In this document: in pieces, positions 1,099 to 23,410 of the stretch | Numbering within the stretch: position 1 is the first letter of the stretch | Layout: each line of letters starts with the position of its first letter | Origin: a virus | Direction: 5' to 3' (one strand) | IMG/VR virus record: IMGVR_UViG_3300011258_000860 | Location: 1-27,067 of that record | DNA length: 27,067 bases | Translations under genes and position numbers: made by a program | The notes under the pieces: generated by a model | Databases searched by the model: none | The model's input: the letters and a program-made list of their open reading frames with translations, nothing else | What the model was told of the DNA's origin: nothing

Positions 1099-1099
1099 T

Positions 1100-2414: not shown

Positions 2415-2417
2415 AAT

Positions 2418-3107
2418 TTAGCCTGTAGTTGTGGACTTTCTTTGCGCTACTGTAGTTATATAAGGGTAATATGACTTCAGTTGGCGAGGAAAGAATTGTT
2501 TACAAAGTAGAGCATCATTTGGCCATAGTCCAATTTTTCTCTGTAGTTCAGCAGCTTGTTTAGCAGCAGTAGGCGTAATCACATATGCGCTATTACCAGC
2601 AAGGCCGTCAGGGTTCTTTTCTAATTGTAGATTTACACCATCAATAAAGTTTACACCAAAATCCCATTTGATAATATTTTCATGATACTGATTACCTCGA
2701 CGTGTAGCACCTCTTGGATCATTAATCATTACAATCTCACCGTCTTCAATCTGATTCCATACTTTAGATGGTCTGAACTTTCTGGTGAAAATTGTATCAT
2801 GTTCAAGAATCATGATTGGTTCATTTTTCTCTACACACAAGTCCCACAACTTCAAATGCGATAAGGCACATGCCATAATTTTTCTATGATTTTCAGCACG
2901 ATAGCCAACTAGCTTCATGCCATGCTCCTCTTTTGTCTCTCCTTGCATTGGGTAAGTATACTCCCAATCATACGTCTTGTCAGGAGTTTCTGCTTTAATC
3001 ATTTCAATATGCAAGTCATCACTCATCTGCCTTGCTGTAGCTACAGTAGTCCTAGCGCTTGAGATGCTATATTGGTCATTAAAAAGTGCAATTACATATG
3101 CTTTCAT
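2418..3107 (-). CDS. GT25-family glycosyltransferase, second copy
   Basis: A protein of 229 aa with the same signposts as its neighbour: a MKAYVIALFN start, a SHLKLWDLC helix at residues 83-91, the strand IMILEHDTIF with E102-H-D104, and GNSAYVITPTAAKQAAEL near residue 170. It is only loosely similar outside these motifs, so the pair is an old duplication or two independent acquisitions. It overlaps the upstream gene by the 4-bp ATGA arrangement, implying translational coupling. The expected activity is transfer of a hexose to a lipo-oligosaccharide-type acceptor; this is inferred from the family. The C-terminus (QRKSTTTG) is polar and probably disordered. Confidence 0.8.
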   Translation of the reverse strand: MKAYVIALFNDQYSISSARTTVATARQMSDDLHIEMIKAETPDKTYDWEYTYPMQGETKEEHGMKLVGYRAENHRKIMACALSHLKLWDLCVEKNEPIMILEHDTIFTRKFRPSKVWNQIEDGEIVMINDPRGATRRGNQYHENIIKWDFGVNFIDGVNLQLEKNPDGLAGNSAYVITPTAAKQAAELQRKIGLWPNDALLCKQFFPRQLKSYYPYITTVAQRKSTTTG

Positions 3108-3829
3108 CTCACATACCTTTCTATAGAAGCTCCGCCATAGACAGATATATGATCGTCTTTAGGCTCGCTTAATACTTGATACCAACCATACTCTGCTGGC
3201 AGAAGTTGTTTGTTTTTATACATATCAAAAACTCTATCGCTATCAAATCTACTTCTATGATGAATAATTAAATTATCGTTAAGCCACCATCCCCAGTCAT
3301 TACTCACAGTAGCATCTTGCTTTTCTTTAGGGTAGATTTTAGGTATCTCATACATTTTATGTACATTACTATGTCTACTTCCTCTGATAGCAAATCCAAC
3401 AGATGCTTTATTTTCATATGCATACTCAAGGTATTTCGTGAAGTCCACATTGCTTGATGTAAAAGTGTCCCATCTAGCTCTGACTATTAAATCATATTCT
3501 TCAGTTACTTGATGCGTTAGCTGGTGTGCATGTCCTACTATTTGCTTTGCAGCGTGCGCCAATTTAGCGTGCATACTTTTACCTGCTCGAAAATTTCTTT
3601 TGTACCCCGCATATTTTGGATGAGATGATTCACTTTCACATTCTGTCCAAGGATTATAATGCATTTCAGGTTCATCAAAGTACGCACACTTTAAATCATC
3701 GCTCTGTTGACTTTTGAGACTTGACCATGTCGAGCAAAATACATTATTCCCAAAATGCTCTTTTGCAGAATCAATATTTCTCTCGATATTACCTCTAATA
3801 ATACCAGAGAAGCATATAGCAATTTTCAT
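3104..3829 (-). CDS. Phage-type putative glycosyltransferase (MKIAICFSG family)
   Basis: A protein of 241 aa beginning MKIAICFSGIIRGNIERNI. It has an FCSTWSS strand near residue 31 and YDLIVRARWDT at 112-122. This 'ICFSG-x-R ... STW ... YD-x-R-x-R-x-D' arrangement is one I associate with glycosyltransferase-like proteins of environmental phages and giant viruses; I cannot name a characterised member. The RARWD stretch would sit where GT-A enzymes put their metal-binding motif. It overlaps both neighbours by 4 bp (ATGA), so it is translated within the sugar operon. A transferase role rests on that context and the weak motif; call it probable rather than proven. Confidence 0.55.
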   Translation of the reverse strand: MKIAICFSGIIRGNIERNIDSAKEHFGNNVFCSTWSSLKSQQSDDLKCAYFDEPEMHYNPWTECESESSHPKYAGYKRNFRAGKSMHAKLAHAAKQIVGHAHQLTHQVTEEYDLIVRARWDTFTSSNVDFTKYLEYAYENKASVGFAIRGSRHSNVHKMYEIPKIYPKEKQDATVSNDWGWWLNDNLIIHHRSRFDSDRVFDMYKNKQLLPAEYGWYQVLSEPKDDHISVYGGASIERYVR

Positions 3830-4542
3830 AGACTGTCAACCTTACTCCACCACTCAGTCTTCTTCAAAGCCTCTAGTTCTTCTGGTGTTCCCATACCTAA
3901 GAACTTCTCAACTCGATATTCTCTTACATTACCCTCAAGATAATTATATACAGGCGCAAGGTAGAATTCACCGTTTGTACGATCATCAGCATCAAACATT
4001 CTCTGTGCAGCTTCAGCAAACTTTTTCTCGCTTGCAAAATGATAAACACCTACAGTAGCAATATTTGAAATCATTTTCTTTTCTGCCAATTCAGTGATAT
4101 ATCCACTTTCATCTACAGTGACATAACTATGAATTGGTTTATCATGGTCAGGAATAAATGTAAGAATAGTGCCTTCAGTATTATCCTGCTTAAAGAAGTC
4201 AGATTTATTCCATGACATTAACTGGTCACAGTTTGCAACTAAGAACCCATCATCACTCTCTGTGTCAATTGCTTCTAGTACAGTACAAGCAGCGCCTTCA
4301 GTAGTGGCATCTAGTACATGTACAGTAGCACTAGGAGAAGCATCTTTAATTAGCTCATCAATAGCATACTTGTCAATATGTTCACGACGAACAATAACAT
4401 GAATATCTGTTCCATGTCCAATGTTTTCTAACACTCTGACGAACATAGGCTTACCTTGAATGTCAATTAGTGGCTTTGGTAAATCATATCCAGCATCAAT
4501 AAATCTTTGACCGTTGCCAGCCATGGGTAAAATAATTTTCAT
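3826..4542 (-). CDS. Sugar-phosphate nucleotidyltransferase
   Basis: A protein of 238 aa with the full N-terminal signature of the NTP-transferase fold: MKIILPMAGNGQRF (G-x-G-x-R loop, residues 8-13), then LPKPLIDIQGKPM at 21-33 with the catalytic/phosphate-binding Lys in PKPL. FLVANCDQL near residue 96 gives the metal-binding Asp, and TNGEFYLAPVYNYL comes near 188. The protein is short and lacks the C-terminal left-handed beta-helix seen in GlmU or long RmlA forms. It should make an NDP-sugar (or CDP-alditol) from NTP and a sugar phosphate; the sugar is not determinable. Its ATG overlaps the RuBisCO-like gene's stop (TAATG), so the two proteins are probably made in step. This suggests the RuBisCO-like protein acts on a sugar phosphate of the same pathway. 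Confidence 0.85.
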   Translation of the reverse strand: MKIILPMAGNGQRFIDAGYDLPKPLIDIQGKPMFVRVLENIGHGTDIHVIVRREHIDKYAIDELIKDASPSATVHVLDATTEGAACTVLEAIDTESDDGFLVANCDQLMSWNKSDFFKQDNTEGTILTFIPDHDKPIHSYVTVDESGYITELAEKKMISNIATVGVYHFASEKKFAEAAQRMFDADDRTNGEFYLAPVYNYLEGNVREYRVEKFLGMGTPEELEALKKTEWWSKVDSL

Positions 4543-5597
4543 TAATCTAAGCTCTTTCTCATTTCATATACTTTATCGTAAATACTTTCACCGGTGTGCA
4601 GCCAACCACCGATGTTAGCCATCCAATCATCACCAATTCGATCTTTGATTTCTAAAGCAAGCACTGGATTCATTCCACAGCTAAGTGCAGCAACTCTATC
4701 ATTACTAGAACATAATGAGATTGCCTCTAATGTTTCATCTTCAGACTCGCCTTCTGGATAATATCCACCAAGCATACCGACGTGCATTGTGTCAATACCT
4801 GCCATAACACCAAGTTTAACCAGAACAGGCCATGAGATAGAAAATCTATTGTCCGGGTCAGTTAGAATACGAATACCAGAACGCTGATAGTGTGTGATAA
4901 GTCCTGCCTGATTACTTGCTGTATATGCACCTAGACCTGACCAAAAATTGATATGCACACAATCGCCACCAAGACTTCTAACATCTTCCAAGTTTTGAAC
5001 TAATTCATATGGATCAGCATTAACACAGTATGAATAAACAACTTTGCTATTTTTCTTTTCAATAAGAGAACTTACTGCCTGCACTCTTTGAGTCAAAGGT
5101 AAATAATCATTGTTAGCCATAATCTCATCTTCTTTGATGAAATCGCTGCCGCCGTCAATCATTTGCTCTACAATAGAAAGAAGTTGTTGTTCTGTAAGAC
5201 CTGACTTTGGTTTAACAATAGAACCAAACAGTGGGCGGTTCTCTGCACCTACACGTTCTTTAAATGCTTTCATTCCAAGAACAGGAGCATTCATATAAGG
5301 TAAACCTTCAATATCAATGACACGACATCGTTCTACAATTTCAATATCAGATTGCCCACCTTGAATAATACAAAGCAACTGAGAAATGTTTGGCCATGTA
5401 AATGCTTTGAGTGGGTAATCAATCTTTACGATATTACCTTCAATAGACTTTACAATAGCTTGCATTTCTTTGACATTAGCAGAAGTTTCAATTTCTGATC
5501 TAATATTTGGATTACCGATACTTTGGCCGATAGCAATATTATGTGCAGCAGCAGGAATATCCTTGCTGTGTACTTCATATGTCACTGTGTAATACAT
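4542..5597 (-). CDS. RuBisCO-like protein (form IV-type large-subunit homolog)
   Basis: A protein of 351 aa, shorter than the usual 400-480. The N-terminal domain ends in PNISQLLCIIQGG, matching RuBisCO 'GNIPQLLS'. The TIM-barrel holds GSIVKPKSGL (K129 and K131, equivalents of spinach K175/K177) and GGSDFIKEDE (K155, D157, E158, equivalents of K201/D203/E204, the carbamate and Mg site). It also has MHVGMLGG (H272, about H327), LSCGMNP (S306, about S379) and NIGG (G330-G331). The HIHRAMH stretch is replaced by ILTDPDNRF, so H294/R295 are missing. Loop 6 has no lysine at the K334 position (Y279). It is therefore not expected to carboxylate RuBP; an enolase, isomerase or decarboxylase-type reaction on a sugar phosphate is more likely. 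An AGGG 9 bases upstream favours the ATG at 5597; another ATG lies at 5606. Confidence 0.9.
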   Translation of the reverse strand: MYYTVTYEVHSKDIPAAAHNIAIGQSIGNPNIRSEIETSANVKEMQAIVKSIEGNIVKIDYPLKAFTWPNISQLLCIIQGGQSDIEIVERCRVIDIEGLPYMNAPVLGMKAFKERVGAENRPLFGSIVKPKSGLTEQQLLSIVEQMIDGGSDFIKEDEIMANNDYLPLTQRVQAVSSLIEKKNSKVVYSYCVNADPYELVQNLEDVRSLGGDCVHINFWSGLGAYTASNQAGLITHYQRSGIRILTDPDNRFSISWPVLVKLGVMAGIDTMHVGMLGGYYPEGESEDETLEAISLCSSNDRVAALSCGMNPVLALEIKDRIGDDWMANIGGWLHTGESIYDKVYEMRKSLD

Positions 5598-5621
5598 TTT
5601 AGACATCCCTACTATATTACG

Positions 5622-6218
5622 TTAGATGCGAATTGAGAATTGAGTTTGCCCATGCTTCTCTAGCTCAAGATTGTGTAAAGCGACAAATTCTTTTACAGCT
5701 TTAGTTACACCTGGTTTACCATATCTGGTTCCTGGCCATTTGTAATCATCACCTATAATCAATCCGCCTTTCTTTACAATATTTAGAGAATTACTTAAGT
5801 CTGACATTACACCCTCATATGCATGAGAACCATCAAGATAAATCCAGTCAAGATTTTTACCTTTGTAGCTACTAAAAAACTTATCAGAAGTCATTCTTTT
5901 AACAAAGACATTTTTATAATCTAAGAATTTATTCAACACTCTTTGATAAACAGATTCATAATACTGCTGAAAACCTGCTTCAGTTTTAGAGCCTGTAATT
6001 TTTGAATACCTCTCTAGATACTCTTCCCACTCAAATTCAGTTGTGCCCTTATACGCTTCGACGCTCCATGGGTCAACTAAGTATAATTTTTTAACGTCTT
6101 TGCTTGCGAAATTGATAGATGTATTACCTTCCCAAACACCAATTTCAGCACCTATTGTGTTTCTTTTAATTAAGTGTAAAATACTAGGAGAGTCTTTATT
6201 GACTGCGCTTCCCATCAT
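5622..6218 (-). CDS. Class I SAM-dependent methyltransferase (Methyltransf_24-like)
   Basis: A protein of 198 aa. The SAM-binding loop reads TIGAEIGVWEGNTS (residues 21-34, motif I G-x-E-x-G-x-x-x-G), followed by KKLYLVDPW, where the Asp binds the ribose of SAM. LDWIYLDGSHAYEGV then GGLIIGDDY are typical of the Methyltransf_24/TylF group, in which the DGSHxYE and GDD acidic residues bind a metal for O-methylation of sugars or catechols. The start is set by AAGGA 9 bases before the ATG at 6218; a TTG at 6239 extends into the upstream gene and lacks such a site. It probably O-methylates a sugar made or transferred by this island. Confidence 0.8.
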   Translation of the reverse strand: MMGSAVNKDSPSILHLIKRNTIGAEIGVWEGNTSINFASKDVKKLYLVDPWSVEAYKGTTEFEWEEYLERYSKITGSKTEAGFQQYYESVYQRVLNKFLDYKNVFVKRMTSDKFFSSYKGKNLDWIYLDGSHAYEGVMSDLSNSLNIVKKGGLIIGDDYKWPGTRYGKPGVTKAVKEFVALHNLELEKHGQTQFSIRI

Positions 6219-6223
6219 AAGAT

Positions 6224-6910
6224 TTATTCCTTGTTCCAATAGTTCTTTGTAGCGCCTGTATCAAAATCAAACCCCCAAAAATCAATGTCTTTTTTATACC
6301 AATCAGCAACAATTTGAATTGTCTCTGTAGTGTAGATATCTTTGTATGTTCCTTTATTTACACCTGTAACATTTCTAGGGCCTGTCATACTAGGAATATT
6401 AAAGTACTTACACAAGTCTTCATTTAATTTATCAAACCGCATCATGTCACAACGCAGATTGCCTTTCTCATCTGAGACATGATCAAATGCAGGATACCAT
6501 CCACGAATAGCCCTATGCCACATGTATGGCTTATCTGCCCATTCAAATCGTTCTTCTAAAAAATGCTCAAATGAGTCAATTTTATGTTTACCAACAGGTT
6601 CTTTCTTTTCAACTTCAATTACTTTTTTAGCAAAGAAATATCTCGATACTACACGATCCCATGGATTACGAATGACCGCAAAACAATCATGATACAGAGT
6701 ATATTGTTTAGATAAATCTCTCCATCTTGCATGTTCAAAGCCATGATGATCACCATTAGCGTTCATAGTGTTTAAGACTGCTTGAGAGTACTCTTCGCTT
6801 TTATGAACTTTAGGAGTTGCTAGAATAATTTTACCTCTTAGAGCATCACTACGTCGAATAGTTAGTCCAGCATTCTTAGGAATATGAATAAACAGTTTAG
6901 GACTAAACAT
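6224..6910 (-). CDS. Sulfotransferase family 2-like protein
   Basis: A protein of 228 aa. The N-terminus KLFIHIPKNAG (residues 5-15) is the 5'-phosphosulfate loop of carbohydrate sulfotransferases ('IPKTAGTS'). CFAVIRNPWDRVVSRYFFAKK (about 76-96) is the 3'-phosphate-binding motif with the R...S pair. RCDMMRFDKLNEDL near residue 148 corresponds to the family's 'v.r.E.l..d'. The usual Thr/Ser after the loop glycine is Leu here (AGLTI), a possible weakening of PAPS binding. If active it moves sulfate from PAPS to a glycan hydroxyl. A GGAG 10 bases before the ATG supports the start. It lies 1 bp after the preceding glycosyltransferase. Confidence 0.75.
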   Translation of the reverse strand: MFSPKLFIHIPKNAGLTIRRSDALRGKIILATPKVHKSEEYSQAVLNTMNANGDHHGFEHARWRDLSKQYTLYHDCFAVIRNPWDRVVSRYFFAKKVIEVEKKEPVGKHKIDSFEHFLEERFEWADKPYMWHRAIRGWYPAFDHVSDEKGNLRCDMMRFDKLNEDLCKYFNIPSMTGPRNVTGVNKGTYKDIYTTETIQIVADWYKKDIDFWGFDFDTGATKNYWNKE

Positions 6911-6911
6911 A

Positions 6912-7688
6912 TCAAATCTGCTCCATAAGTTGTTTCACATTCTCACCACGATCAGGCAGCTTATCTTTCAGAAAGAAGTGTACAAAATGACACTCTGAAA
7001 TTTTAGGGTTAGCTGTAAACAGTCCATTCCATTTCCAGTGCATGTGTTTAACAGGTACGTTACGGGACTTCATGAAGTAGTTTAATAGAGTCTGATCTGT
7101 TGACCATTTCCATGCACCAACACCATCCACAAACGGCTCAAACTCTACCTTAGCCATCCAATCTTTTGCAGGCATGTTGACATACTCGTAAAAAGATTGA
7201 TTCAGCAGCATAAGTCCCATGTTATAAAACTCATAGCCTAACTTATTTGGTTTAAAGTCTAATCCACGTTTACCATGCAAATTATGATACTGCATGTTTG
7301 AGTAGTTACGAATCTTTGCAGCATACTGCTTGTTGATCGACATCTCACGTTCACAGACTGCGCCAAATGGCTTATCAGTGCCAAAGTCATCAAAGATATT
7401 AGGAGCATCTGGTCTAATGTAAATGTCAGAATCTACGATGGCAATCTGATCATACTCAGGCAGTAGATCAAAAGCATTCTCTTTCTCAAAGATAGGCAAG
7501 TAACCTAAACGAGATGCGCCTTCACTTCGATTAGAGGTAAAAGGATTAGGATTGATGCGCAGTTTAGGCTCAGTCAATACCTGGTGTTCAATATCATGCT
7601 TAGAGCAATACTCAGATACGGATTGAATACAATGCTTGTAGAGTTTTGATGGTTTACCTACTGAAACCTGATATATGAGTCTTTTCAT
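6912..7688 (-). CDS. GT-A glycosyltransferase (GT8-like)
   Basis: A protein of 258 aa. The core strand QIAIVDSDIYIRP holds D86-S-D88, the metal/nucleotide-sugar motif. It is followed by FGAVCEREM, YNMGLMLLNQSF (family 'NsGvmL') and STDQTLLNYFM, and a C-terminal CHFVHFF provides the late His. This order is that of GT8-like or nucleotide-diphospho-sugar transferases. The protein is fuller than the GT8-like gene at 1100-1774 and probably has a different specificity. It overlaps the dehydrogenase stop by 4 bp (ATGA), so it is co-translated with a gene that would supply a UDP-uronic acid or similar donor; that donor link is an inference. Confidence 0.75.
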   Translation of the reverse strand: MKRLIYQVSVGKPSKLYKHCIQSVSEYCSKHDIEHQVLTEPKLRINPNPFTSNRSEGASRLGYLPIFEKENAFDLLPEYDQIAIVDSDIYIRPDAPNIFDDFGTDKPFGAVCEREMSINKQYAAKIRNYSNMQYHNLHGKRGLDFKPNKLGYEFYNMGLMLLNQSFYEYVNMPAKDWMAKVEFEPFVDGVGAWKWSTDQTLLNYFMKSRNVPVKHMHWKWNGLFTANPKISECHFVHFFLKDKLPDRGENVKQLMEQI

Positions 7689-8470
7689 TTTAAACGGTGT
7701 CCAATGTTAATATCTCTTACAGCTTCAATCAAGCGCAGCTTTCCTTCATGACGCTCTGCAAAATTTACAAACTCTGAAGTGTCTTTAGGCAGACAATGCC
7801 CACCCCAACCAAATCTACCATCATAACCAGGCACTTCATTATGAGAATGTCCGATACGCTCATCAAGACCCAGAGCATAGACGGTAGAGTCATAGTCAAG
7901 TTCTGGATGTGCTTTCTGCATCAGGTTATAAAGATCATTAAAGAAAGTTACACGCATAGCAAGAAAAGAGTTTTCTGCATACTTGACATAACCTGCTTCT
8001 ACAATATCAAGAAACGCTTCTTCTGCAATGTCGATACAATCAGCAAACACATTTGCCCAGCCTTCTGCTTGACTAGGTTCACCACCAATAATCATTTTAG
8101 TCTCAGCAAGAAAGTCTTCTACAGAACTACGTCCACGCAGAAACTCTGGAGAGAAACAAACATTAGGATAGTTTTCTTTGAAGAATTGCAGTGTATCAAT
8201 ATCAGTAGTAGACTTGATTAGAATTGGTATGTCTTTACCAATAGCTTCTACAGTTTCAAGTACAAGAGAAGCATCACAATCTCCATTCGCACGTTCTGGT
8301 GTTGGCACACAGACTACAGCAGCATCACATGACTCCATGACTTCGATCAATGGAGTGCTATACTCTTCATAAGCAGGGTCTACAATATCATAATCAACTT
8401 TATCAGATTGATCAAATGCAGCGACCATTGCTTTGCCAACAAAGCCATATCCAACTACACAAACTTTCAT
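7685..8470 (-). CDS. Short UDP-sugar/nucleotide-sugar 6-dehydrogenase
   Basis: A protein of 261 aa. It opens with the NAD Rossmann loop MKVCVVGYGFVGKA and has VVCVPTP (52-58), the SPEFLRG motif (107-113) and AGYVKYAENSFLAMRVTF (159-176) with K163 and N167. The catalytic GGHCLPKD has Cys226 and Asp230. All catalytic residues of the UDP-glucose/UDP-ManNAc dehydrogenase family are therefore present. The C-terminal UDP-binding Rossmann domain of the 390-430-aa enzymes is missing, because the frame ends about 30 residues after the cysteine. The ATG at 8470 is the natural start, 1 bp after the preceding stop. The expected reaction is two-step oxidation of an NDP-hexose C6 to the uronic acid, for use by the neighbouring transferases. 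Confidence 0.85.
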   Translation of the reverse strand: MKVCVVGYGFVGKAMVAAFDQSDKVDYDIVDPAYEEYSTPLIEVMESCDAAVVCVPTPERANGDCDASLVLETVEAIGKDIPILIKSTTDIDTLQFFKENYPNVCFSPEFLRGRSSVEDFLAETKMIIGGEPSQAEGWANVFADCIDIAEEAFLDIVEAGYVKYAENSFLAMRVTFFNDLYNLMQKAHPELDYDSTVYALGLDERIGHSHNEVPGYDGRFGWGGHCLPKDTSEFVNFAERHEGKLRLIEAVRDINIGHRLK

Positions 8471-8471
8471 A

Positions 8472-9329
8472 CTATTCTCCAAAAAAATTCTCATAAAAAT
8501 CTCTGAACACAGAAACTTTCTGTTTTGCTATTTGTACATTCTGATCTATATATCTTTTATCCTTAAACATGTCAACAGGAACTTTTGGTAAAAGATGATC
8601 GTAGTTTAAGTTAGAACTTCTTTTCCAATTAGTTAGCATAGTGGGTGTACCTAAAGAAACACTAACTGATTGGCATAATCCATTATATCCAAATGCAAAT
8701 TCACTAGTGGCTAAATGATAATAAAGTTCTCTAATTGGTGTTCTATACTCAACTTCAACAACATCATACTCTAAAAGTTTCAAGTTTTCTTTGATTTCAT
8801 TCCATTCGGTATAGCTATATAATTCATCTGTCTCTCTACCATCAGTGACCCATATAACATCATTCGATGTTCCCATCATTGTATGTACAAATGTTGTTTT
8901 CCAAAATACAACTTTTTTAGGGACTCTATCTAAATGATTTTTTAGTGGCCAAAGAAGGGAACGCTTGTCTACACCCTTTACTTTTAAAATCTTATTGATG
9001 CTAATACAATCATCATTAAACTGTCTTTTTCTTTTTACATATTCTTTCCGACTATCAATTATTATATGATTAAATTTTACACTTACTTTTGATTTGAACT
9101 CTATCATTGAATGTAAATAATTAAATTTATCTAAGAATGATTCTAGTTCATCACAGTCTTTAAAATAAAAATTTTCATCTACATAAATACTTGACCAAAA
9201 GACATCAACAAATAAGTCTATTTCATTATATCTTGCGAGATAATAACTATAGGAAAGAACCCTAATCGCCTCAAAGTAGCTTGCCTCACCGAGAGATACT
9301 TCAATTTTATTTGAATTTACGAAAATCAT
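8472..9329 (-). CDS. Putative GT-B glycosyltransferase (GT9/heptosyltransferase-like)
   Basis: A protein of 285 aa, AT-rich by eye compared with the dehydrogenase next to it. The clearest landmark is LATSEFAFGYNGLCQSVSVSLGTPTMLT near residues 207-234, which looks like the C-terminal donor-binding part of GT-B enzymes ('l...a.l.ig.nsG..h.A.alG.P.v.l'). An N-terminal start of small alternating strands and helices fits a Rossmann half. I cannot identify catalytic residues. The first ATG (9329) overlaps the radical-SAM stop by 23 bp. Transfer of a sugar within the island is the best guess. The nucleotide composition suggests it was acquired separately from its neighbours. Confidence 0.55.
   Translation of the reverse strand: MIFVNSNKIEVSLGEASYFEAIRVLSYSYYLARYNEIDLFVDVFWSSIYVDENFYFKDCDELESFLDKFNYLHSMIEFKSKVSVKFNHIIIDSRKEYVKRKRQFNDDCISINKILKVKGVDKRSLLWPLKNHLDRVPKKVVFWKTTFVHTMMGTSNDVIWVTDGRETDELYSYTEWNEIKENLKLLEYDVVEVEYRTPIRELYYHLATSEFAFGYNGLCQSVSVSLGTPTMLTNWKRSSNLNYDHLLPKVPVDMFKDKRYIDQNVQIAKQKVSVFRDFYENFFGE
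8547..8575 (-). promoter_or_regulatory. Possible internal sigma70-type promoter
   Basis: On the minus strand TTGACA (8575-8570) is followed by exactly 17 bases and TATATA (8552-8547). This is the same pair and spacing as the intergenic element at 14107-14135. It lies inside the codons of the preceding transferase, about 80 bp before the dehydrogenase ATG, so it could give extra transcription of the sugar genes. Being within coding sequence, it may be chance. Confidence 0.35.
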
Positions 9330-10263
9330 TTAAATCAAAGTCCGTTCCATGCATTTTATACAAGTCTCTTTCATGGTTTGTATAGACAAGTACTTCTGGA
9401 TCATCAATTAAAAAATCGCAACCTTTACAAAAATCAGGATAATTTCCTGTAGTATGCTGCTTTCTCAATAGCTCATATGCATGTCCATTCCAGATTTCTT
9501 CTGCTGTATTATCTGATATATGCCCAAGAATAGCATCATCATCTCTACCGAGAACCTGACAACAAGGATGTACAGCGCCCCATTTACCTTCTGCACCCCC
9601 TGCTCGAATAACTAAGTCTGGTGAAAATGGTCTACCACAAGTCTTGACCTTACCCTCTCGACCATATTCAGGCTCATATACACCTGACCAATTATGCATC
9701 TTCCATATTTCAGTCTTTACACCAGCAGTTTCAACGATCTTGCGGTACTGCTCTACTTCATAGTCAATATTATCATTATCCATGACAAGATGATATGTAG
9801 ACACAACACAGTCTGAATCTGAGTCTTCTACATATCTCTGCATAGCTTCAAGGTTATTAATGACTTTTGTAAACTCTTTTGAGTTCATCCATGCCCAGTA
9901 TGTATCTGCATTATATCCAATGATAGAGAAGCGAAAGAAGTCTGCGCCAGCATCTACAACTCGCTTCATATAATCACCGTGCATACGATTGCCATTAGAA
10001 TACATGAAAGCTTTTGCTCCATGCTTTTTTACAACTCTTACATATTCGTCAAGATTAGAGTTCAGCGTAGGTTCACCACTACCTTCAAGATTAACAACCC
10101 GCAGACCATGATTAACTAACTGATCTACTGTCTCTTCAAAACGATTGAGAGACATCTTCTTCAGCCAGTTTTTACCTCTGCCCTCTGGTCTAGATTGTGG
10201 ACACATCTGACATGAATAATTACAGCCGCCATTAATCTCAATAACAGCACGATCAATATTCAT
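9307..10263 (-). CDS. Radical SAM/SPASM-domain enzyme
   Basis: A protein of 318 aa. The N-terminal GGCNYSCQMCP gives the CxxxCxxC of the radical SAM [4Fe-4S] cluster (C14, C18, C21). LEGSGEPTLN follows near residue 59, corresponding to the 'GGEP' SAM-binding strand. A C-terminal cysteine-rich region (KTCGRPF near 216, HPCCQV near 236, FCKGCDF near 284) plus the GHISDNTAEEIWNG stretch is the SPASM/twitch layout with auxiliary Fe-S clusters. Related enzymes act on peptides (RiPP maturation), sugars (epimerase or dehydratase chemistry) or cofactors. Here it is embedded between a nuclease and sugar genes, with TAATG coupling to the exonuclease. A sugar-tailoring role is the inference; no precursor peptide was seen next to it. 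Confidence 0.85.
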   Translation of the reverse strand: MNIDRAVIEINGGCNYSCQMCPQSRPEGRGKNWLKKMSLNRFEETVDQLVNHGLRVVNLEGSGEPTLNSNLDEYVRVVKKHGAKAFMYSNGNRMHGDYMKRVVDAGADFFRFSIIGYNADTYWAWMNSKEFTKVINNLEAMQRYVEDSDSDCVVSTYHLVMDNDNIDYEVEQYRKIVETAGVKTEIWKMHNWSGVYEPEYGREGKVKTCGRPFSPDLVIRAGGAEGKWGAVHPCCQVLGRDDDAILGHISDNTAEEIWNGHAYELLRKQHTTGNYPDFCKGCDFLIDDPEVLVYTNHERDLYKMHGTDFDLNDFRKFK

Positions 10264-10934
10264 TAACTTGCTTTATATTGTGCAATGACATCTTTCAGCC
10301 GATCAGTCCAGTTGTCACGATACTCAATAAACACCTGCGGCTCATAGTGATCTACAGCCATAATAGTAACAAGCTGATTGATAGGTGTGCCTGTACGCTC
10401 TTCCCACATCATTGCATATGCAGACTCTTGAATAAAGTAATTTGTGATCTTGTCTTTAGTCTTGTGTCGTTTTGATGTTTTGAAATCAATTACAGAAAGC
10501 TGTCCATCAAATTCAGCAATGCAATCAACTCGACCAGCGACACCAAGGCTATGACTATAAAGAGGTACTTCTTGCGCATAGATTTTTCCAATACGACTAT
10601 CAAGAATAGGTTGAACGTCCTTGAAAGAATTTACAATATGTGGCATATAGCCTTTTGCATAGTTTGGATCATTATCCAAATACTTTTCAATAATCGCATG
10701 TACGTCGGTGCCACGACCAGCAGCCTGTCTTGAGATTTTATTAGCTTCTTCTTCACCCACACGCTTTCGCCATTCCATAATCGCTTTACGAGTGAGAATA
10801 GAAAGTACAGTTGTAATAGACGGATATGCTTTACCGTCGGGTGTAAGATACTTTCGACCAGTCTCTTTTGTCTCAGATTCTAGATCATTGTATCCAATAT
10901 CAAAGTCTACATGTTCAAAAATTTTACGTTGCAT
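10263..10934 (-). CDS. PD-(D/E)XK exonuclease (RecB/MGME1-like)
   Basis: A protein of 223 aa. YPSITTVLS near residue 37 and RGTDVHAIIEKYL (75-86) are typical openings of the Cas4/RecB-like phage exonuclease group. The catalytic core is GRVDCIAEFDGQLSVIDFKTSKR, with D137 as the first acidic residue and D150-F-K152 as the D-x-K. This is followed by a QxxxYAxM helix (ESAYAMMWEE). It probably degrades or processes DNA ends during replication, recombination or host genome breakdown. Marine T4-like phages commonly carry such a gene. The start overlaps the cupin stop by 11 bp, and the next gene begins within its stop codon. It is functionally unrelated to the sugar genes that follow in the same transcript. 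Confidence 0.85.
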   Translation of the reverse strand: MQRKIFEHVDFDIGYNDLESETKETGRKYLTPDGKAYPSITTVLSILTRKAIMEWRKRVGEEEANKISRQAAGRGTDVHAIIEKYLDNDPNYAKGYMPHIVNSFKDVQPILDSRIGKIYAQEVPLYSHSLGVAGRVDCIAEFDGQLSVIDFKTSKRHKTKDKITNYFIQESAYAMMWEERTGTPINQLVTIMAVDHYEPQVFIEYRDNWTDRLKDVIAQYKAS

Positions 10935-11268
10935 AACCTACAGTCTCTCTAACGATATCATTATGATTAAACTCTGCCCAATATAGTTCAAAGGCAACAC
11001 AGTCTTCTACGACTTCAAACTGATGGTAAACACCTGGCTTAACTTTAGTCCACATACCAGCAGTCAATACTGTCTCATCAATCAAATCATAGTCATTTTG
11101 CCAAACACGAATTAGAAGTGCACCTGCTTCAACATAAAAGCCGTTCCACTTAAATTCATGTTTATGTTTGGAGCAAACACCACCTTTTCTTGCCTCAATA
11201 CGATGAAACTCTAATGCGGCGTTCGCTTCAATTAGTTCAGTGTTTCCCCACACTTTGCCTGCAATCAT
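10924..11268 (-). CDS. Small cupin protein
   Basis: A protein of 114 aa with a single cupin barrel. HRIEARKGGVCSKHKHEFKWNGFYVE gives the first motif (H35-x-H37-E38 ... E48), and KPGVYHQFEVVED the second (H82 within the P-G-x-x-H turn). The arrangement resembles the metal-binding site of mannose-6-phosphate isomerase type II and sugar-epimerase/WxcM-like cupins. A role as a sugar isomerase or a metal-dependent modifying enzyme is possible given the island downstream. Many phage cupins have no known function, so this is a fold assignment only. It starts 1 bp after the preceding 55-aa gene. Confidence 0.7.
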   Translation of the reverse strand: MIAGKVWGNTELIEANAALEFHRIEARKGGVCSKHKHEFKWNGFYVEAGALLIRVWQNDYDLIDETVLTAGMWTKVKPGVYHQFEVVEDCVAFELYWAEFNHNDIVRETVGYAT

Positions 11269-11269
11269 T

Positions 11270-11437
11270 TTACCACCATCCTAACTTATTACCATTGTGA
11301 ATAATAATCATAAAACATGCTACAATATGAGCAAGCCACCAGAAGGTTCTGATAGCAGCGATAGCATCGGCTTGTCGATCACTCTCTCCAACTTTTTCAC
11401 CTAAGCTTTTCGCCCATAATCTCCAAAGAGATTTCAT
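11270..11437 (-). CDS. 55-aa conserved phage membrane protein
   Basis: Read by eye from the ATG at 11437, whose first bases overlap the preceding stop as ATGA. The 55-aa product begins MKSLWRLWAKSLGEKVGESD. It continues through RQADAIAAIRT into a hydrophobic helix (TFWWLAHIVACFMIII, about residues 31-46) and a short tail ending KLGWW. The 'LWRLWAK-LGEKVG...A-AIRT + one TM helix' pattern is one I recognise from many small proteins of marine T4-like phages, all of unknown function. A single-span membrane protein with a positively charged N-terminus is expected. The tight spacing on both sides (4-bp overlap, 1-bp gap) supports it as a real gene. Confidence 0.8.
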   Translation of the reverse strand: MKSLWRLWAKSLGEKVGESDRQADAIAAIRTFWWLAHIVACFMIIIHNGNKLGWW

Positions 11438-12213
11438 TCCATTATCCTATACTGTTTTTTAATACGAAACTCATGATGGTCGCAGAAATGTTCGAGAACA
11501 AACTGCGCCAACCCTTCTATGTTATATAGTTCGACATTCAACATTGGATTGTTGTTATCTATCTTACCAACTTTAACTCCTTTATGCCAAAAAGTCAAGG
11601 AGTTTTTATAATTATTAATAATACTTAAAAACTCTAATCGAATGGAGGTATGTTCATTAGCAAACTCTTCGCTAAAAAACTTTGGTGTTGTGATATACTG
11701 ATAACAAGGTTCTCCATTTTGCCAATCAGTAGCCCAATCAAGTTTAATCTCTGGAGAGTTTGTGACAGCAACAGTATTAGTTGGGAACTCTTTTTGAATA
11801 TCCTTGGTGTCTGTAAAAACAGCATCAGCATCTACGATATATGCTTTAAGTTCAATAGGCTCTAGGATTCTATTGAGAGAGTATCTGTGTAGTCCAGTTT
11901 CAACGTAGTATTTACCTCTTCGGTGAAATATCGTTATAGGTTCAATAAACTGATACTTGTTGTCTGGCAACTGTTCGAACAGAGAATAAATCGAAGATAC
12001 TCTATACCAAATGTGATCGGTGTGAGCTAGTTCAAGCCTTAGATTACTAGGAATCCAGTCCTTACCGACTGTCGCCTCCCAGACCTTTACAGTAAATTGT
12101 CTTTCTTTAAATTCATTTGTATCATAAAAAGGAAGGTTCTTCCTCTTTTCGATTTTATTTACAATTTCTGAAGCATTTAATGAGATAGACTCATACTTAT
12201 CAAAAGTTCCCAA
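11434..12213 (-). CDS. ParB/sulfiredoxin-like protein, paralog 1 (TTG start)
   Basis: A protein of 259 aa, unrecognised by name. The core EPITIFHRRGKYYVETGLHRYSL (residues 91-113) has the 'P-I-x-V...Y-x-I-x-x-G-x-H-R' strand-turn of ParB/Srx folds, with G107-L-H-R110. PSNLRLELAH at 55-64 recalls the ParB 'P..l' approach. The C-terminus LAQFVLEHFCDHHEF matches the two following paralogs. No ATG is available near the start; a TTG at 12213 lies 7 bases after AAGAGG and overlaps the upstream stop by 14 bp, so I take it as the true start. In known families this fold binds or hydrolyses nucleotides (ParB CTPase, Srx ATPase, nucleases). The function here is unknown. Confidence 0.65.
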   Translation of the reverse strand: MGTFDKYESISLNASEIVNKIEKRKNLPFYDTNEFKERQFTVKVWEATVGKDWIPSNLRLELAHTDHIWYRVSSIYSLFEQLPDNKYQFIEPITIFHRRGKYYVETGLHRYSLNRILEPIELKAYIVDADAVFTDTKDIQKEFPTNTVAVTNSPEIKLDWATDWQNGEPCYQYITTPKFFSEEFANEHTSIRLEFLSIINNYKNSLTFWHKGVKVGKIDNNNPMLNVELYNIEGLAQFVLEHFCDHHEFRIKKQYRIME

Positions 12214-13105
12214 CTTTAAACCTCTTATCCATTATAAAGTCTGATACAGAAACATCACAAAATTTCCATAAAATAAATTGAATAAATCCAAATTCATCTT
12301 TTACTTTGATCTTAATCTTTTTCTTTGCATATTCATTAGGTATTAAACACAAGTAAGTGTCATCATCTTTATAAAAATACCACTCTTCACCAAATTCCAT
12401 AAAAAGACCAACAAAATCTAAGACGTTTTCAGAATGCTCTTTCATAATATCATCTCTGCTGGGATCATATCTAGAAGTCGGCATCATATGAGATTTAAAA
12501 AAATCTATGCGACTTCTATTGACTAACCTAAAAATAAATTGATCATCATATGTTGTCCAGTCCCAATTAACTTGACCAATTTGGTCTTCTATTTTTTTGG
12601 CTGCGGCTGAACCAAGTGAATAGATAATAGCATCAATTTTTCCACCCATAACTTTCGTGTAGTAATATCTTTGCTGGCCCAAAGAAACATGAAAGTTATT
12701 TTTAGGTTCATCATAAAGTATCATTGTAGGGTCATTAAATTTACCATACTTTAAAATAGCATTATGTAAAGAATATAAAGTAGCAGTTTTACGAATAACA
12801 GTAGAAACTACTCTGTCATATTCCAACTTAAAATCAAACATGTGCTGAAATGCAGACTCAGTATCCATACTAACACGATCAATAGGAAAGTCTTCTTTAT
12901 ACCCTATAACGTGATTGTAAATATCGGAAGTCGTATCACGGTTTTTTTCATCAAGTGGGCGATAAGGAAGATCACTATTTTCATTTAGTAGTTCTTTATG
13001 TGCTTCTATTGCAGACGGTGTTAATACAAGTGAATCCCAAGAGGTGCGAATTATATTTCTATAATCCAAGTCACCGACATATTCATGATGCTTTCCCATA
13101 ATCAT
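12200..13105 (-). CDS. ParB/sulfiredoxin-like protein, paralog 2
   Basis: A protein of 301 aa from the ATG at 13105, chosen because AGGA lies about 12 bases upstream and the only earlier start is a TTG at 13138. The core DPTMILYDEPKNNFHVSLGQQRYYY (about 125-149) aligns with the PIT...G-x-H-R core of its neighbours, but the HR is QR here (G143-Q-Q-R146). The catalytic or binding histidine is thus lost, and this copy may be structural or have changed specificity. EEWYFYKDDDTYLCLIP and the terminal FIQFILWKFCDVS match the other two copies in order. It overlaps paralog 3 by 23 bp and paralog 1 by 14 bp. Confidence 0.65.
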   Translation of the reverse strand: MIMGKHHEYVGDLDYRNIIRTSWDSLVLTPSAIEAHKELLNENSDLPYRPLDEKNRDTTSDIYNHVIGYKEDFPIDRVSMDTESAFQHMFDFKLEYDRVVSTVIRKTATLYSLHNAILKYGKFNDPTMILYDEPKNNFHVSLGQQRYYYTKVMGGKIDAIIYSLGSAAAKKIEDQIGQVNWDWTTYDDQFIFRLVNRSRIDFFKSHMMPTSRYDPSRDDIMKEHSENVLDFVGLFMEFGEEWYFYKDDDTYLCLIPNEYAKKKIKIKVKDEFGFIQFILWKFCDVSVSDFIMDKRFKVGNF

Positions 13106-13910
13106 AGAATTTTTTATTCCTAAAATTGGTGATATCAAAAAAGTAATCTAATACAAATTGCATTAAGCCAAGTTTATATGTTACTCCTGGATGTAGATTT
13201 ATTCTATATATCTCTTTGCTTCTGCTAGGAGATTGGAACAAAAATACGTCATCATAATAAAAGTGTAGTTGCGGCAGTTCTTTTAATGATTCAATAAATT
13301 GCAAAAGATCATGTAAATACTGATAATTAAAATCTTCATGAACTGTTGGCACAGGATTAAATCTATAAAAGTTTTTTATTTTATTCTCAAAATGCACTTC
13401 AAATGGGTAGGGTTCAGAAAGCTCAAGTTCTTTAGGCTCAAATCCATGAAGATAAAAAACATTGGCTTGAATTTTTACATTTTCTAAGCAATTGAACAAC
13501 AGACACCTGTGTGTTCCTGCTATAATTTCATATGCATCAGAGCCATCGAAAAATAGAGTGATAGGATTTTCAAATTTACAATCTCTAAGATAATTCTCAC
13601 ATACAACATAGGTTGTAGAAAAATAACGCATATGAGTTAAGTAAGCATCTCTATATTTTATAGGATCATTACTAGGACTATCATATGAAAATTTTATATC
13701 TTTAGGTAGTTCACTGATGGAGCCGACGCCATAGTTTCTGTTTGTCAACTGTGGCGTAAAATTATGTGCCGTTGCACGTTTAAAACCATCTTCTATAAGA
13801 TCAGAGTAGTCTTGTTGTAAATATTGACCTATTAGCTTATAGAAGCTAACTCCATTAATTTGATCAAGAGGTTTATCCTTACGATCTTTAGTCAATTCAA
13901 TAGAGTTCAT
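13083..13910 (-). CDS. ParB/sulfiredoxin-like protein, paralog 3
   Basis: A protein of 275 aa. The core ENPITLFFDGSDAYEIIAGTHRCLL (115-138) carries G132-T-H-R135. This is the clearest ParB-like 'G-x-H-R' of the three, preceded by a strand and a hairpin loop. The C-terminal region PQLHFYYDDVFLF then LMQFVLDYFFDITNF parallels the other paralogs. By eye the gene is AT-rich, as are its two relatives. The ATG at 13910 overlaps the 57-aa gene by 14 bp. The three together form a run of about 2.5 kb with no recognised function. A nucleotide-binding or DNA-interacting role is only a fold-based suggestion. Confidence 0.65.
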   Translation of the reverse strand: MNSIELTKDRKDKPLDQINGVSFYKLIGQYLQQDYSDLIEDGFKRATAHNFTPQLTNRNYGVGSISELPKDIKFSYDSPSNDPIKYRDAYLTHMRYFSTTYVVCENYLRDCKFENPITLFFDGSDAYEIIAGTHRCLLFNCLENVKIQANVFYLHGFEPKELELSEPYPFEVHFENKIKNFYRFNPVPTVHEDFNYQYLHDLLQFIESLKELPQLHFYYDDVFLFQSPSRSKEIYRINLHPGVTYKLGLMQFVLDYFFDITNFRNKKFYDYGKAS

Positions 13911-14070
13911 CTTCGATAAACTTTCGGTATTTTTTCATGTACTTCTCATTCTCTTCATCAAAATGAGTTTTTGAAGCCGCTTTATTTTTAGCTTTGATTG
14001 CCTCTTTTGACATACTTTTATGTCGTCCATTTTTCTTGTTGCGAGGGTCAAATCGTGAAAATTTAGCCAT
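13897..14070 (-). CDS. 57-aa basic hypothetical protein
   Basis: Read by eye from the ATG at 14070 to the TGA at 13897. The product begins MAKFSRFDPRNKKNGRHKSM, continues with KEAIKAKNKAASKTHF and ends in a charged helix (NEKYMKKYRKFIEDELY). It is strongly basic in the first 35 residues and acidic at the end, with no membrane segment. Basic N-termini of this sort are common in small phage proteins that bind nucleic acid or host RNA polymerase, but nothing specific is recognisable. It is the first gene after the promoter at 14107-14135, with AAGGAAA upstream as ribosome-binding site. Confidence 0.7.
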   Translation of the reverse strand: MAKFSRFDPRNKKNGRHKSMSKEAIKAKNKAASKTHFDEENEKYMKKYRKFIEDELY

Positions 14071-14138: not shown

Positions 14139-14843
14139 TTATTTGATACCCAACATTTCTTTGGTCATGATATAATCACGAACAAATCCAGAGCGAACAA
14201 TGTCAGCCCATCCAAACTCAACAATTTCAAAGTCTTTCATATGATCGACAATATTCATAAACTGTAGAATACCATTCTTCTCTTTCTCTTTATCAAAGTC
14301 TGTCTGATAGTAATCACCACATGCAATGAGTCTACAGTTTCTACCAACACGGGTAACAACAGAGTCTAACTCATGAAAGTTCAAGTTCTGCATTTCATCA
14401 ATAATGACAATTGCATTATTAAATGTAGTACCTCGAATGTATGAGGTGGTTTCAAACTGAATAGTGCCTGTCTGCTTCAGTTTGTTCCATGCATCTGCTA
14501 CACCAAAAAGCTCACTACAGATAGCTCGATATGGCAGAGTAAATACATTTTCTTTTTCTTCTTTCGTACCTGGCTGAAAGCCTTGCTCTCTAGTAGCTAC
14601 AGCAGAGCGAATGAGTACAATATTGTCATACTCAGTTTCTTTTTCTAGCACCTCTTCAAGAGCAAGATAAAGAGCCATAAATGTCTTACCTGTACCTGCT
14701 GAACCAGACAGCATAAGATTGTTACCTTCTTCAAACAAAGAAAAAGCTTTTTCTTGATTCTTTGTGATCGGTTCAATTTCTGGAAGATCGTCCAGACGAA
14801 TTTTCATTGCATTCATTTTTCGCACTTGCTTTTTGCTAGACAT
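14139..14843 (-). CDS. phoH: PhoH-like ATPase
   Basis: A protein of 234 aa. A PhoH-type P-loop LMLSGSAGTGKTFMAL lies near residues 43-58. It is followed by VLIRSAVATREQGFQPG, which matches the PhoH 'R.......GFLPG' signature, and by Walker B NAIVIIDEMQNL. CRLIACGDYYQTDF comes next, corresponding to the 'G.GD..Q.D' segment. The length is close to the single-domain phage PhoH proteins that are very common in marine myoviruses. Proposed functions include ATP-dependent RNA unwinding or degradation; the link to phosphate starvation comes from the bacterial namesake. The ATG at 14843 overlaps the previous stop by 8 bp; a TTG directly before it is also possible. Confidence 0.93.
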   Translation of the reverse strand: MSSKKQVRKMNAMKIRLDDLPEIEPITKNQEKAFSLFEEGNNLMLSGSAGTGKTFMALYLALEEVLEKETEYDNIVLIRSAVATREQGFQPGTKEEKENVFTLPYRAICSELFGVADAWNKLKQTGTIQFETTSYIRGTTFNNAIVIIDEMQNLNFHELDSVVTRVGRNCRLIACGDYYQTDFDKEKEKNGILQFMNIVDHMKDFEIVEFGWADIVRSGFVRDYIMTKEMLGIK

Positions 14844-15069
14844 CAATTGTCGTCTTCTTATCAGAGGCTTTTTTAACTTTCTTTAGAATATCTTGCCATT
14901 CACCGCCTGCCATACGATGAGTAGACATTCGTCCAGATACGGTTGCTGGCATCTTAAATACTTGACTGTACTCAGAGTTGCCTTGCAGGAATTGTTTAAA
15001 CTCTTCATACGGCATGTTTACCTCAAAGTATTCATCTTTTGAGTTGTCTTTAATCGTGTATACTGGCAT
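14836..15069 (-). CDS. 77-aa conserved phage protein next to phoH
   Basis: A product of 77 aa from the ATG at 15069: MPVYTIKDNSKDEYFEVNMP, then YEEFKQFLQGNSEYSQVFKMP and RMAGGEWQDILKKVKKAS. The start 'MP-x-Y...' and the following strand-helix resemble FmdB-like small regulatory proteins, but the CxxC pairs of the zinc ribbon are absent, so this would be a metal-less variant. Similar proteins sit beside phoH in other marine phages. The frame is open for 31 more codons upstream, but that part only shadows the oxygenase gene. With this start it overlaps the oxygenase by 20 bp. Function is unknown. Confidence 0.75.
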   Translation of the reverse strand: MPVYTIKDNSKDEYFEVNMPYEEFKQFLQGNSEYSQVFKMPATVSGRMSTHRMAGGEWQDILKKVKKASDKKTTIDV

Positions 15070-15596: not shown

Positions 15597-15675
<79 letters not shown>

Positions 15676-17008: not shown

Positions 17009-17109
<101 letters not shown>

Positions 17110-21193: not shown

Positions 21194-23410
21194 TTAAAAA
21201 TCAATTTCACAGGCACCGCCAGCACAAGCAGCGGCCCCAAGTGTATCTACATCTGTAAACTTTTTCTCTGACAACTCAGAAATCCAGTCAATCTGCTGAT
21301 AAGAGCGTTCGATCTTTTGCCACTTATGAATAAGATGAGCATCTTTCAAACAGTATTCAGTCTTCTTCTTATTGCCTTCAAGATATTTATCAGCAAAAGA
21401 TTCGAACCGACGCACCCAGTCTTTCTTCAGTGTGTTCTTAGAGTTCTCCGCAGAGATATCTTCGCCGTATCCTTGTGCAGTCATACATGCAGCCCAAAGA
21501 TCATCAAATGCAGCAAGACCATCTACAACTAGACCAGATGCTAATACAGCAGCCACTCCATACTTTTCAACCATTTTTTCAGCGTCGATAACTTCAGTGT
21601 TTGGCGCTTGATTGAAATCTTTATCGCCAGAAGTAGACAAGAAAGAAATACCAGCGAAGTGATCCCGATTGCTATAAACATATTCTGCAACATCATCCCA
21701 ATCCTCTACTAGAATAGTATTAGAAACGTTATGTGATACTGTAGGGTCTGCGCATAGTTCTGGATTTTTACCAGCATTTACCCAATGATTTTGCGCTTTC
21801 TTGACAAGATCAAGGTGCTTTACACCAATCAACTTATCTTTGAGAATAGAACCCGTCTTTGGCGTGATAGGAAATGATACTACCCAATCAGTGCCGTTAG
21901 CAGACCATACAGAGTCTTCTACCATCTCAGGGTTATTTTTAGCGATTACTTGAGCGACCTCAGAGTCTTTATTCAGTTGGACATTTCGAATGTATCTTTC
22001 AGAATGTTCAGCATGAATTCCACTTGCAGTACCCAAGAGTACACTAGCATTGCCACTAGGCTTAACACAAGTAGTCCGAGCAGCAGCATTAATACCAAGT
22101 AACTCAGCAATTCTTTTATTAGTTTCTTTGACAATCTCTGCACCCCTTTCTAGAATTTTACTATCAAAAAGAATATCAGGGTTATTCATCCAACCAGTGA
22201 CAGAGACCCCAAGGAGTGCTTCACGATCAAAAATTGCTTTTGTAGTATCAGGAAGAAATGTAAAGTTTGTATAGCCAGCTTGTAGTGTACCAAGAATAGC
22301 GGCAGCTTCACATGCCTTGTAGAATGACTCTTCATCTACACATTGTCCACCATTAATCTCTGTTAGATTGCAGCCCTGCCAACCAGACTGACCATCAATC
22401 TGTGGGAACATACCAATCTCTACACATGGATTAGTTGTATGCTCAGTAGATTCTACAAATACGAAACCTGGTTCACCAAATTGTTTAATACTGTCCATGA
22501 TATTCATGAATTGCTCTTTGGTAGTTTCTTTACGAACAATAACAGCAGAGTTATTAGACCTTGCACGTTGTGGATTATCAGTAAACCAGTTGCCTGTCTT
22601 TGCATTCATCATCTCATCATCATCAGGAGAGAACAGACAGATAGTAGCAGACCGACGCACACCACCTGACAGAACAGCATCAGCACAGTGCATAGCAATA
22701 TCATAGACATGAATAGGACGTAACTGCACAGGTTCCTTAGAACCCATTACAACACCTTGAATAAGGTATTCAATACGATCTAGTGCTTGACGCAAACCAT
22801 CTGGCCCAGGTGCTTTAAATCCACCAGAAATCTTTGCACCCTTTGGTCGAATGTTAGTCAAGTCAAAGAATACACGACGACCTTCAAACTCTGGATGTGT
22901 TCCGCCTTCTACAAAGTACGAAGACATGAGTACGTCAAGTGCAGACGCCCAGCCTTCAATGCTATCTTCTACAATGTAGCCTTTAGCTTGCTTCTTACGC
23001 TCTTGGACAGCAGGTAATTTATTTACATGATGATGCTGTACAGAAAACCCTGCACCCGCTCCACAGAGCAGGATATAGAAGTATTCACCAAAGAAAGATG
23101 CACGATCTACATAAGAAGATGTGCAGTTGTACATTTTCATTTGATGCTTCAGAAGTTGATCGCCACCAAACTGTAAAGCTCGCTGTGCGCCAAGTACACG
23201 CTTTTCTTTGTATGCGACTGTAGCTTTTGTAAATTCTTTTTCTAAAGCTTCGCTGATTTTATCCTTATAATATCCTCTATGCATAGACATAACACGATCA
23301 ACCGATTCGTCCCAACTTTCATATCTATTTTCATCATCAACATATCTGGAATAAGAATCGTAGAATTTAGTTTGAGACAAAAAGTCTCTCATGTCTAGAC
23401 TATTGGTCAT
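21194..23410 (-). CDS. nrdJ: Adenosylcobalamin-dependent (class II) ribonucleotide reductase
   Basis: A protein of 738 aa, the length of monomeric class II ribonucleoside-triphosphate reductases. MYNCTSSYVD contains C96, and TNPCVEIGMFP has the active-site N337-x-C339-x-E341 (thiyl radical Cys and partners). QGCNLTEI has C357, the redox partner of C96, and CVKPSGNASVLLGTASGIHAEHS the phosphate-binding loop. GAAACAGGACEIDF at the very end provides the C-terminal cysteine pair C729/C734 that re-reduces the site. It makes dNTPs for phage DNA using host adenosylcobalamin. AGAGG precedes the ATG. No second subunit is encoded here, as expected for class II. Confidence 0.93.
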   Translation of the reverse strand: MTNSLDMRDFLSQTKFYDSYSRYVDDENRYESWDESVDRVMSMHRGYYKDKISEALEKEFTKATVAYKEKRVLGAQRALQFGGDQLLKHQMKMYNCTSSYVDRASFFGEYFYILLCGAGAGFSVQHHHVNKLPAVQERKKQAKGYIVEDSIEGWASALDVLMSSYFVEGGTHPEFEGRRVFFDLTNIRPKGAKISGGFKAPGPDGLRQALDRIEYLIQGVVMGSKEPVQLRPIHVYDIAMHCADAVLSGGVRRSATICLFSPDDDEMMNAKTGNWFTDNPQRARSNNSAVIVRKETTKEQFMNIMDSIKQFGEPGFVFVESTEHTTNPCVEIGMFPQIDGQSGWQGCNLTEINGGQCVDEESFYKACEAAAILGTLQAGYTNFTFLPDTTKAIFDREALLGVSVTGWMNNPDILFDSKILERGAEIVKETNKRIAELLGINAAARTTCVKPSGNASVLLGTASGIHAEHSERYIRNVQLNKDSEVAQVIAKNNPEMVEDSVWSANGTDWVVSFPITPKTGSILKDKLIGVKHLDLVKKAQNHWVNAGKNPELCADPTVSHNVSNTILVEDWDDVAEYVYSNRDHFAGISFLSTSGDKDFNQAPNTEVIDAEKMVEKYGVAAVLASGLVVDGLAAFDDLWAACMTAQGYGEDISAENSKNTLKKDWVRRFESFADKYLEGNKKKTEYCLKDAHLIHKWQKIERSYQQIDWISELSEKKFTDVDTLGAAACAGGACEIDF

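Follow-up and report, generated by a model that had tools for sequence, protein, structure and literature searches.

A new divergent family of tandem phage paralogs with a probable ParB/sulfiredoxin-type core

Three overlapping tandem genes of an environmental phage, here called A, B and C, belong to a new and divergent family within what is probably a known fold. Each most likely carries a ParB/sulfiredoxin (Srx)-type core, and the three are old copies of one another, that is, distant paralogs. They are real genes under purifying selection, and the one locus that they occupy, between phoH and an exonuclease gene, carries three, two, one or no members depending on the contig. The family looks rare, previously undescribed, lineage-specific and accessory in phages. 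Recent work established the ParB fold as a widespread and versatile module for NTP binding (PMC12704722), and the present family extends it to forms missed by Pfam and to side-by-side paralogs whose number varies between related phages. With its range from 0 to 3 copies, the locus offers a natural series in which the purpose of additional copies can be studied, and the family suggests that domain searches underestimate the number of phage ParB-like proteins. The window analyzed here is the whole 27,067-base virus record IMGVR_UViG_3300011258_000860 (positions 1 to 27,067).

Gene layout, relatedness and selection

The genes are transcribed in the order A (13910-13083), B and then C (TTG 12213 to 11434), within a chain of overlapping ORFs that starts with a 57-aa ORF, ends with a 55-aa ORF and is followed by cupin and exonuclease genes (Table 1). 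The exonuclease gene matches phrog_298, and the operon runs on into it. An earlier sequence-only reading had reported the place of the three genes and overlaps of 14-23 bp between them, and both were reproduced, the overlaps being 23 bp between A and B and 14 bp between B and C; the A/B figure assumes that B begins at ATG 13105, the tool-called ORF start being TTG 13138. The TTG start of C is also found in its ortholog in the sister contig IMGVR_UViG_3300006919_000183 (L001). A, B and C are presumably co-translated. An ORF similar to the 57-aa ORF is the immediate upstream neighbor of the cupin gene in L168, a contig without a family member, and in the sister contig C abuts the cupin gene, leaving no room for the 55-aa ORF. 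The AT-richness described earlier is real, with GC contents of 30.9% (A), 31.7% (B) and 34.9% (C) versus 36.8% for the window. Promoter and terminator scans gave nothing informative.

Table 1. Coordinates of the three paralogs, their motifs and their immediate neighbors in the window
Feature	Position	Strand	Remarks
phoH-like gene	14139..14846	(-)	Conserved left-hand neighbor of the family
57-aa basic ORF (MAKFSRFDPRNKKNGR...)	13897..14070	(-)	Directly upstream of A; 14-bp overlap with A
Copy A	13083..13910	(-)	275 aa; variable N-terminus; probable ParB/Srx-like core, residues ~92-160; C-terminal alpha/beta domain, ~190-272
A, GTHR	13506..13517	(-)	Residues 132-135; box II (P motif) equivalent
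A, C-terminal block QFVLDYFFD	13134..13160	(-)
Copy B	12200..13105	(-)	301 aa from ATG 13105; 312 aa from TTG 13138
B, GQQR	12668..12679	(-)	Residues 154-157 (TTG numbering); box II equivalent
B, C-terminal block QFILWKFCD	12254..12280	(-)
Copy C	11434..12213	(-)	259 aa; conserved TTG start, AGAGG upstream
C, GLHR	11884..11895	(-)	Residues 107-110; box II equivalent
C, C-terminal block QFVLEHFCD	11479..11505	(-)
55-aa ORF	11270..11437	(-)	Hydrophobic stretch; 4-bp overlap with C
Cupin gene	10924..11268	(-)	Conserved right-hand neighbor of the family

The proposal that A, B and C are diverged tandem paralogs was upheld, as their homology is above chance and their identity low (18-25% pairwise). 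BLASTP gave E-values of 3e-5 for A and B and 1e-4 for A and C, and phmmer linked B to the C ortholog of the sister contig at 3.7e-8 among ~8,100 ORFs. In hhalign comparisons of copy-specific profiles, A and C matched at an E-value of 6e-6, while the matches of A with B (0.025) and of B with C (0.0024, not above the shuffle maximum) were weak, and the links of B therefore depend mainly on sequence searches. The P-I strand and GxxR turn that had been put forward as a shared core are common to all three copies, as is the C-terminal block. An FYxDD-type hairpin, claimed for the whole trio, was confirmed in A and B but not in C, which reads FWHKG. The sole invariant columns among the nine family members are M1, the Arg of GxxR, one Phe and one Gly.

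The sister contig has the complete trio in an unchanged order, and its orthologs share 87% (A), 81-82% (B) and 57% (C) identity with those of the window. Between the two contigs dN/dS was 0.11 for A, 0.20 for B and 0.125 for C, the last value being rough because the dS of C (2.39) is near saturation. This range of 0.11-0.20, together with a C ortholog in a more distant contig, agrees with the earlier description of the triplication as old and retained. The dS values were 0.58 for A, 0.44 for B, 1.80 for the cupin gene and 0.36 for the exonuclease gene. The idea that C evolves fast and is hence adaptive was rejected, since the dS values of C and of the adjacent cupin gene are also very high. 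The jump in dS in these two genes, compared with 0.36-0.58 in A, B and the exonuclease gene, makes recombination likely, and the stretch from C to the cupin gene (window 10924-12213) was probably exchanged in this way.

Evidence for a ParB/Srx-type core

A profile of 80 bacterial ParB proteins served as the reference for calibration. The family profile aligned to it by hhalign with a score of 29.4-29.6 (nominal E-value 0.002, probability 14%) over 53-63 columns at a core identity of ~23%; the alignment is in register, beginning at the box I helix and ending with the strand that follows GxxR. This score was attained by none of the column shuffles in three runs (0/100, 0/150 and 0/250) and by none of 78 decoy families (best 23.6, mean 13.3, s.d. 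3.0). When copy A was left out, the score was 24.1 in the same register and above all 120 of 120 shuffles. Single-copy profiles of B and C were also in register with ParB, that of C without exceeding its shuffles (4/120 attained its score), and no in-register match to ParB was obtained when the L169 and L171 proteins were profiled on their own. A profile search of the PDB returned Noc (7ol9), the Bacillus ParB relative, as the first match, at an E-value of 0.7 (six-member profile) or 0.34 (nine-member profile); the alignment is in register and places the PI...GxxR of the family on QPI...GERR. Single-copy profiles against the PDB gave noise.

A PHROG scan of A had one match, to a ParB-like protein (E 0.26). 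Pfam PF02195 (ParB_N) was not matched at an E-value of 10, and Pfam and PHROG scans with all members and the family consensus found nothing significant. The canonical ParB HMM ranked A merely 75th among ~8,100 ORFs and did not single out the trio. The ParB/Srx assignment first made from the letters of the sequence is supported as remote homology, given the in-register hhalign result, and not as a match that any search alone returns at standard significance.

Structure prediction, which had been proposed as a check, was suggestive of ParB/Srx for A and uninformative for B. The AlphaFold2 model of A has low confidence (pLDDT 45) and arranges a helix, two strands, a helix and a strand around GTHR, in the order seen in ParB. 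Among its 19 structural matches at Z >= 2, 15 were ParB, Noc, SerK, SbnI, PadC or Srx, with Z <= 3.0 throughout and the best ParB at 3.0. The model of B (pLDDT 37.6) has the same order of elements, and a Foldseek search with it matched noise only. Foldseek against BFVD also gave noise, with an Orpheovirus ParB/Srx protein listed at a probability of 0.20. The box I helix/loop followed by the P-I/V strand is aligned in register by hhalign and has the same placement in the low-confidence models of A and B.

The GxxR motif aligns on the GERR of the 80 ParB proteins. Its Arg is present in 9/9 members and its Gly in 8/9, S replacing G in copy 1 of L169. Across the family it reads GTHR, GQQR, GLHR, GLQR (C of the sister contig), GTQR, GFSR or SFTR, so that the second x is free (H, Q, S or T) and differs even between the two C orthologs. 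GxxR is the P motif of the ParB fold and nearly invariant there (PMC12704722). In the ParB-like NTP binders that were examined, among them phage proteins, replacing the R by A abolished binding; 17 of the 28 ParB-fold proteins tested bound no NTP (PMC12704722). The loss of the His in B had been taken to suggest a catalytic plus non-catalytic assembly. The comparison does not support that suggestion: with the Arg kept in every member and the His position variable, there is no basis for regarding B as a non-catalytic copy.

The family shares with the ParB-CTPase fold (PF02195; Spo0J/ParB, Noc) the order of box I helix/loop, P-I strand, GxxR, helix and strand. It differs in that the trio has no recognized box III (ENxQR), HTH, ParB C-terminal dimerization domain or nearby parA, its C-terminal alpha/beta domain being another one. 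Box III, the HTH and the dimerization domain were found neither in the family alignment nor in Pfam scans, and no parA-like gene was recognized among the neighbors read in the window and the sister contig, both of which are fragments. Given that box III, HTH and ParA are missing, a role in partition is unlikely. Sulfiredoxin has the G-x-H-R turn seen in A and C and is among the structural matches of the A model. The catalytic cysteine of sulfiredoxin sits in GCHR; it is absent from 9/9 family members, and these proteins are therefore not sulfiredoxins. SerK and SbnI are weak fold matches of the low-confidence A model, and the catalytic Glu of SerK was not located by alignment.

Phage orphan ParB-like proteins, described as single-domain forms and as fusions to DUF3850, DUF6551 or DUF1983, resemble the trio in a divergent fold with GxxR kept, a fused domain and no partition role (PMC12704722). 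In contrast to them, the trio consists of tandem paralogs in overlapping genes without a PF02195 match, and none of those three fusion domains was detected in it. The DdrB-like ParB domains of phage P1 (PMC5512222) are likewise accessory phage members of the ParB/Srx superfamily with a conserved active-site arginine. Unlike them, the trio has no polyvalent architecture and lies beside phoH and an exonuclease gene, not among late virion genes.

Relatives and copy number at the locus

The productive route to relatives was through the neighbors phoH and cupin. Scanning next to phoH revealed three more members, two in L169/L170 and one in L171. In L169/L170 a 307-aa member precedes the cupin gene (profile E 2.4e-8) and a 247-aa member follows it (profile E 8.9e-10), and L171 has a single 305-aa member (profile E 3.1e-5). 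The 247-aa protein is closest to C (4.5e-14 to the copy in the sister contig; clade support 87/86), and the duplication is therefore at least partly older than the split of these phage lineages. The arrangement of phoH, a small ORF and cupin with no member in between was found in L168 (identical to L271), L251, L252, L254, L258, L273, L274 and L275, and these related contigs mark the family as accessory.

Wider searches returned few relatives. A six-member profile run against 50 further records matched in the sister contig only, the others being fragments in which absence is weak evidence. In 50,697 phage records, tblastn found no relative with five members at an E-value of 1, and none or noise with the family consensus at an E-value of 10. 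Scans of viral contigs with A, B, C and the alignment returned the sister contig or nothing, and a bacterial genome scan with B gave no match. In L254/L258 an ORF of 169-172 aa lies between the cupin and exonuclease genes, in the position of the C-like gene of L169; no similarity to the family could be detected in it, and by eye it resembles a 2OG-Fe(II) oxygenase. The cupin-exonuclease locus may be a site of gene exchange.

Possible roles and neighboring genes

The optional presence of the family, its phoH and exonuclease neighbors and the purifying selection on it suggest that it plays an accessory part during infection. Roles proposed for phage ParB/Srx proteins are those of NTP-sensing or NTP-regulated DNases and of anti-defense factors (PMC5512222; PMC12704722). 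In the account that we prefer, and in which our confidence is evenly balanced, the trio is an anciently duplicated, co-translated set of members of an accessory family. Each copy would combine a variable N-terminal region, a ParB/Srx-type core and a shared C-terminal alpha/beta domain of ~80 aa, and all three would use the GxxR pocket to bind an NTP, either CTP or ATP. A, B and C would probably assemble with one another, a hetero-oligomer being plausible, and the resulting NTP-controlled complex would act in host takeover or counter-defense. A more elaborate version seems quite improbable: in it, the copies would be differently specialized NTP-binding subunits, perhaps each for another NTP, of a single hetero-oligomer. 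This complex would sense or remodel the nucleotide pool or the DNA of the host during takeover and would amount to a ParB-fold switch of several subunits that works without ParA, HTH or parS.

The proteins could instead be ParB/Srx-like nucleases whose NTP-regulated, non-specific nicking degrades host or rival DNA or aids early replication, as has been suggested for DdrB and other phage ParB-like DNases (PMC5512222). DNase and NTPase activities are frequent among the ParB/Srx proteins that mobile elements encode (PMC5512222) and the operon runs into an exonuclease gene, but an acidic metal-binding motif is not conserved across the nine members and a non-specific nuclease leaves the keeping of three diverged copies unexplained; we consider this unlikely. 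To a similar, small degree we credit the possibility that the trio is not ParB at all and that a new or unrelated fold, for example of a structural or receptor-binding accessory protein, resembles it by chance in the PI strand, GxxR and helix. The lack of curated family matches, the low hhalign probability and the poor AlphaFold2 models would fit such a fold, whereas the shuffle and decoy tests, the correct register in the separate paralogs B and C and the first rank of a ParB-family protein in the PDB profile search speak against it. A kinase or transferase that acts on small molecules in the manner of SerK/SbnI, modifying a metabolite at the expense of ATP for the nearby sugar and surface-modification genes, is very doubtful: the structural matches of A include SerK and SbnI and the window abounds in nucleotidyltransferase, UDP-sugar dehydrogenase and sulfotransferase genes, yet the SerK Glu was not found by alignment and a syntenic phage without the trio (L274) still has a UDPdh gene nearby.

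In the window these gene types fall in a dense cluster (562-11268) of glycosyltransferase-like, nucleotidyltransferase, UDP-sugar dehydrogenase, sulfotransferase, 2OG-Fe(II) oxygenase and radical SAM/SPASM genes, the content of which suggests surface or glycan modification. Amid its sugar, sulfotransferase and radical-SAM genes lies a gene for a 354-aa RuBisCO-like protein (4542-5606, minus strand; Pfam RuBisCO_large 1.8e-24, RuBisCO_large_N 2.9e-5); the protein contains the motif KPKSG and a segment, GGSDFIKEDE, resembling the carbamylated-lysine region. Elsewhere, the window encodes a diverged ribonucleotide reductase (21194-23410, minus strand), which matches the barrel domain and the B12-dependent (class II) insertion domain weakly, as well as tRNA-Thr(TGT) (15597-15672) and tRNA-Arg(TCT) (17021-17095), both on the minus strand.
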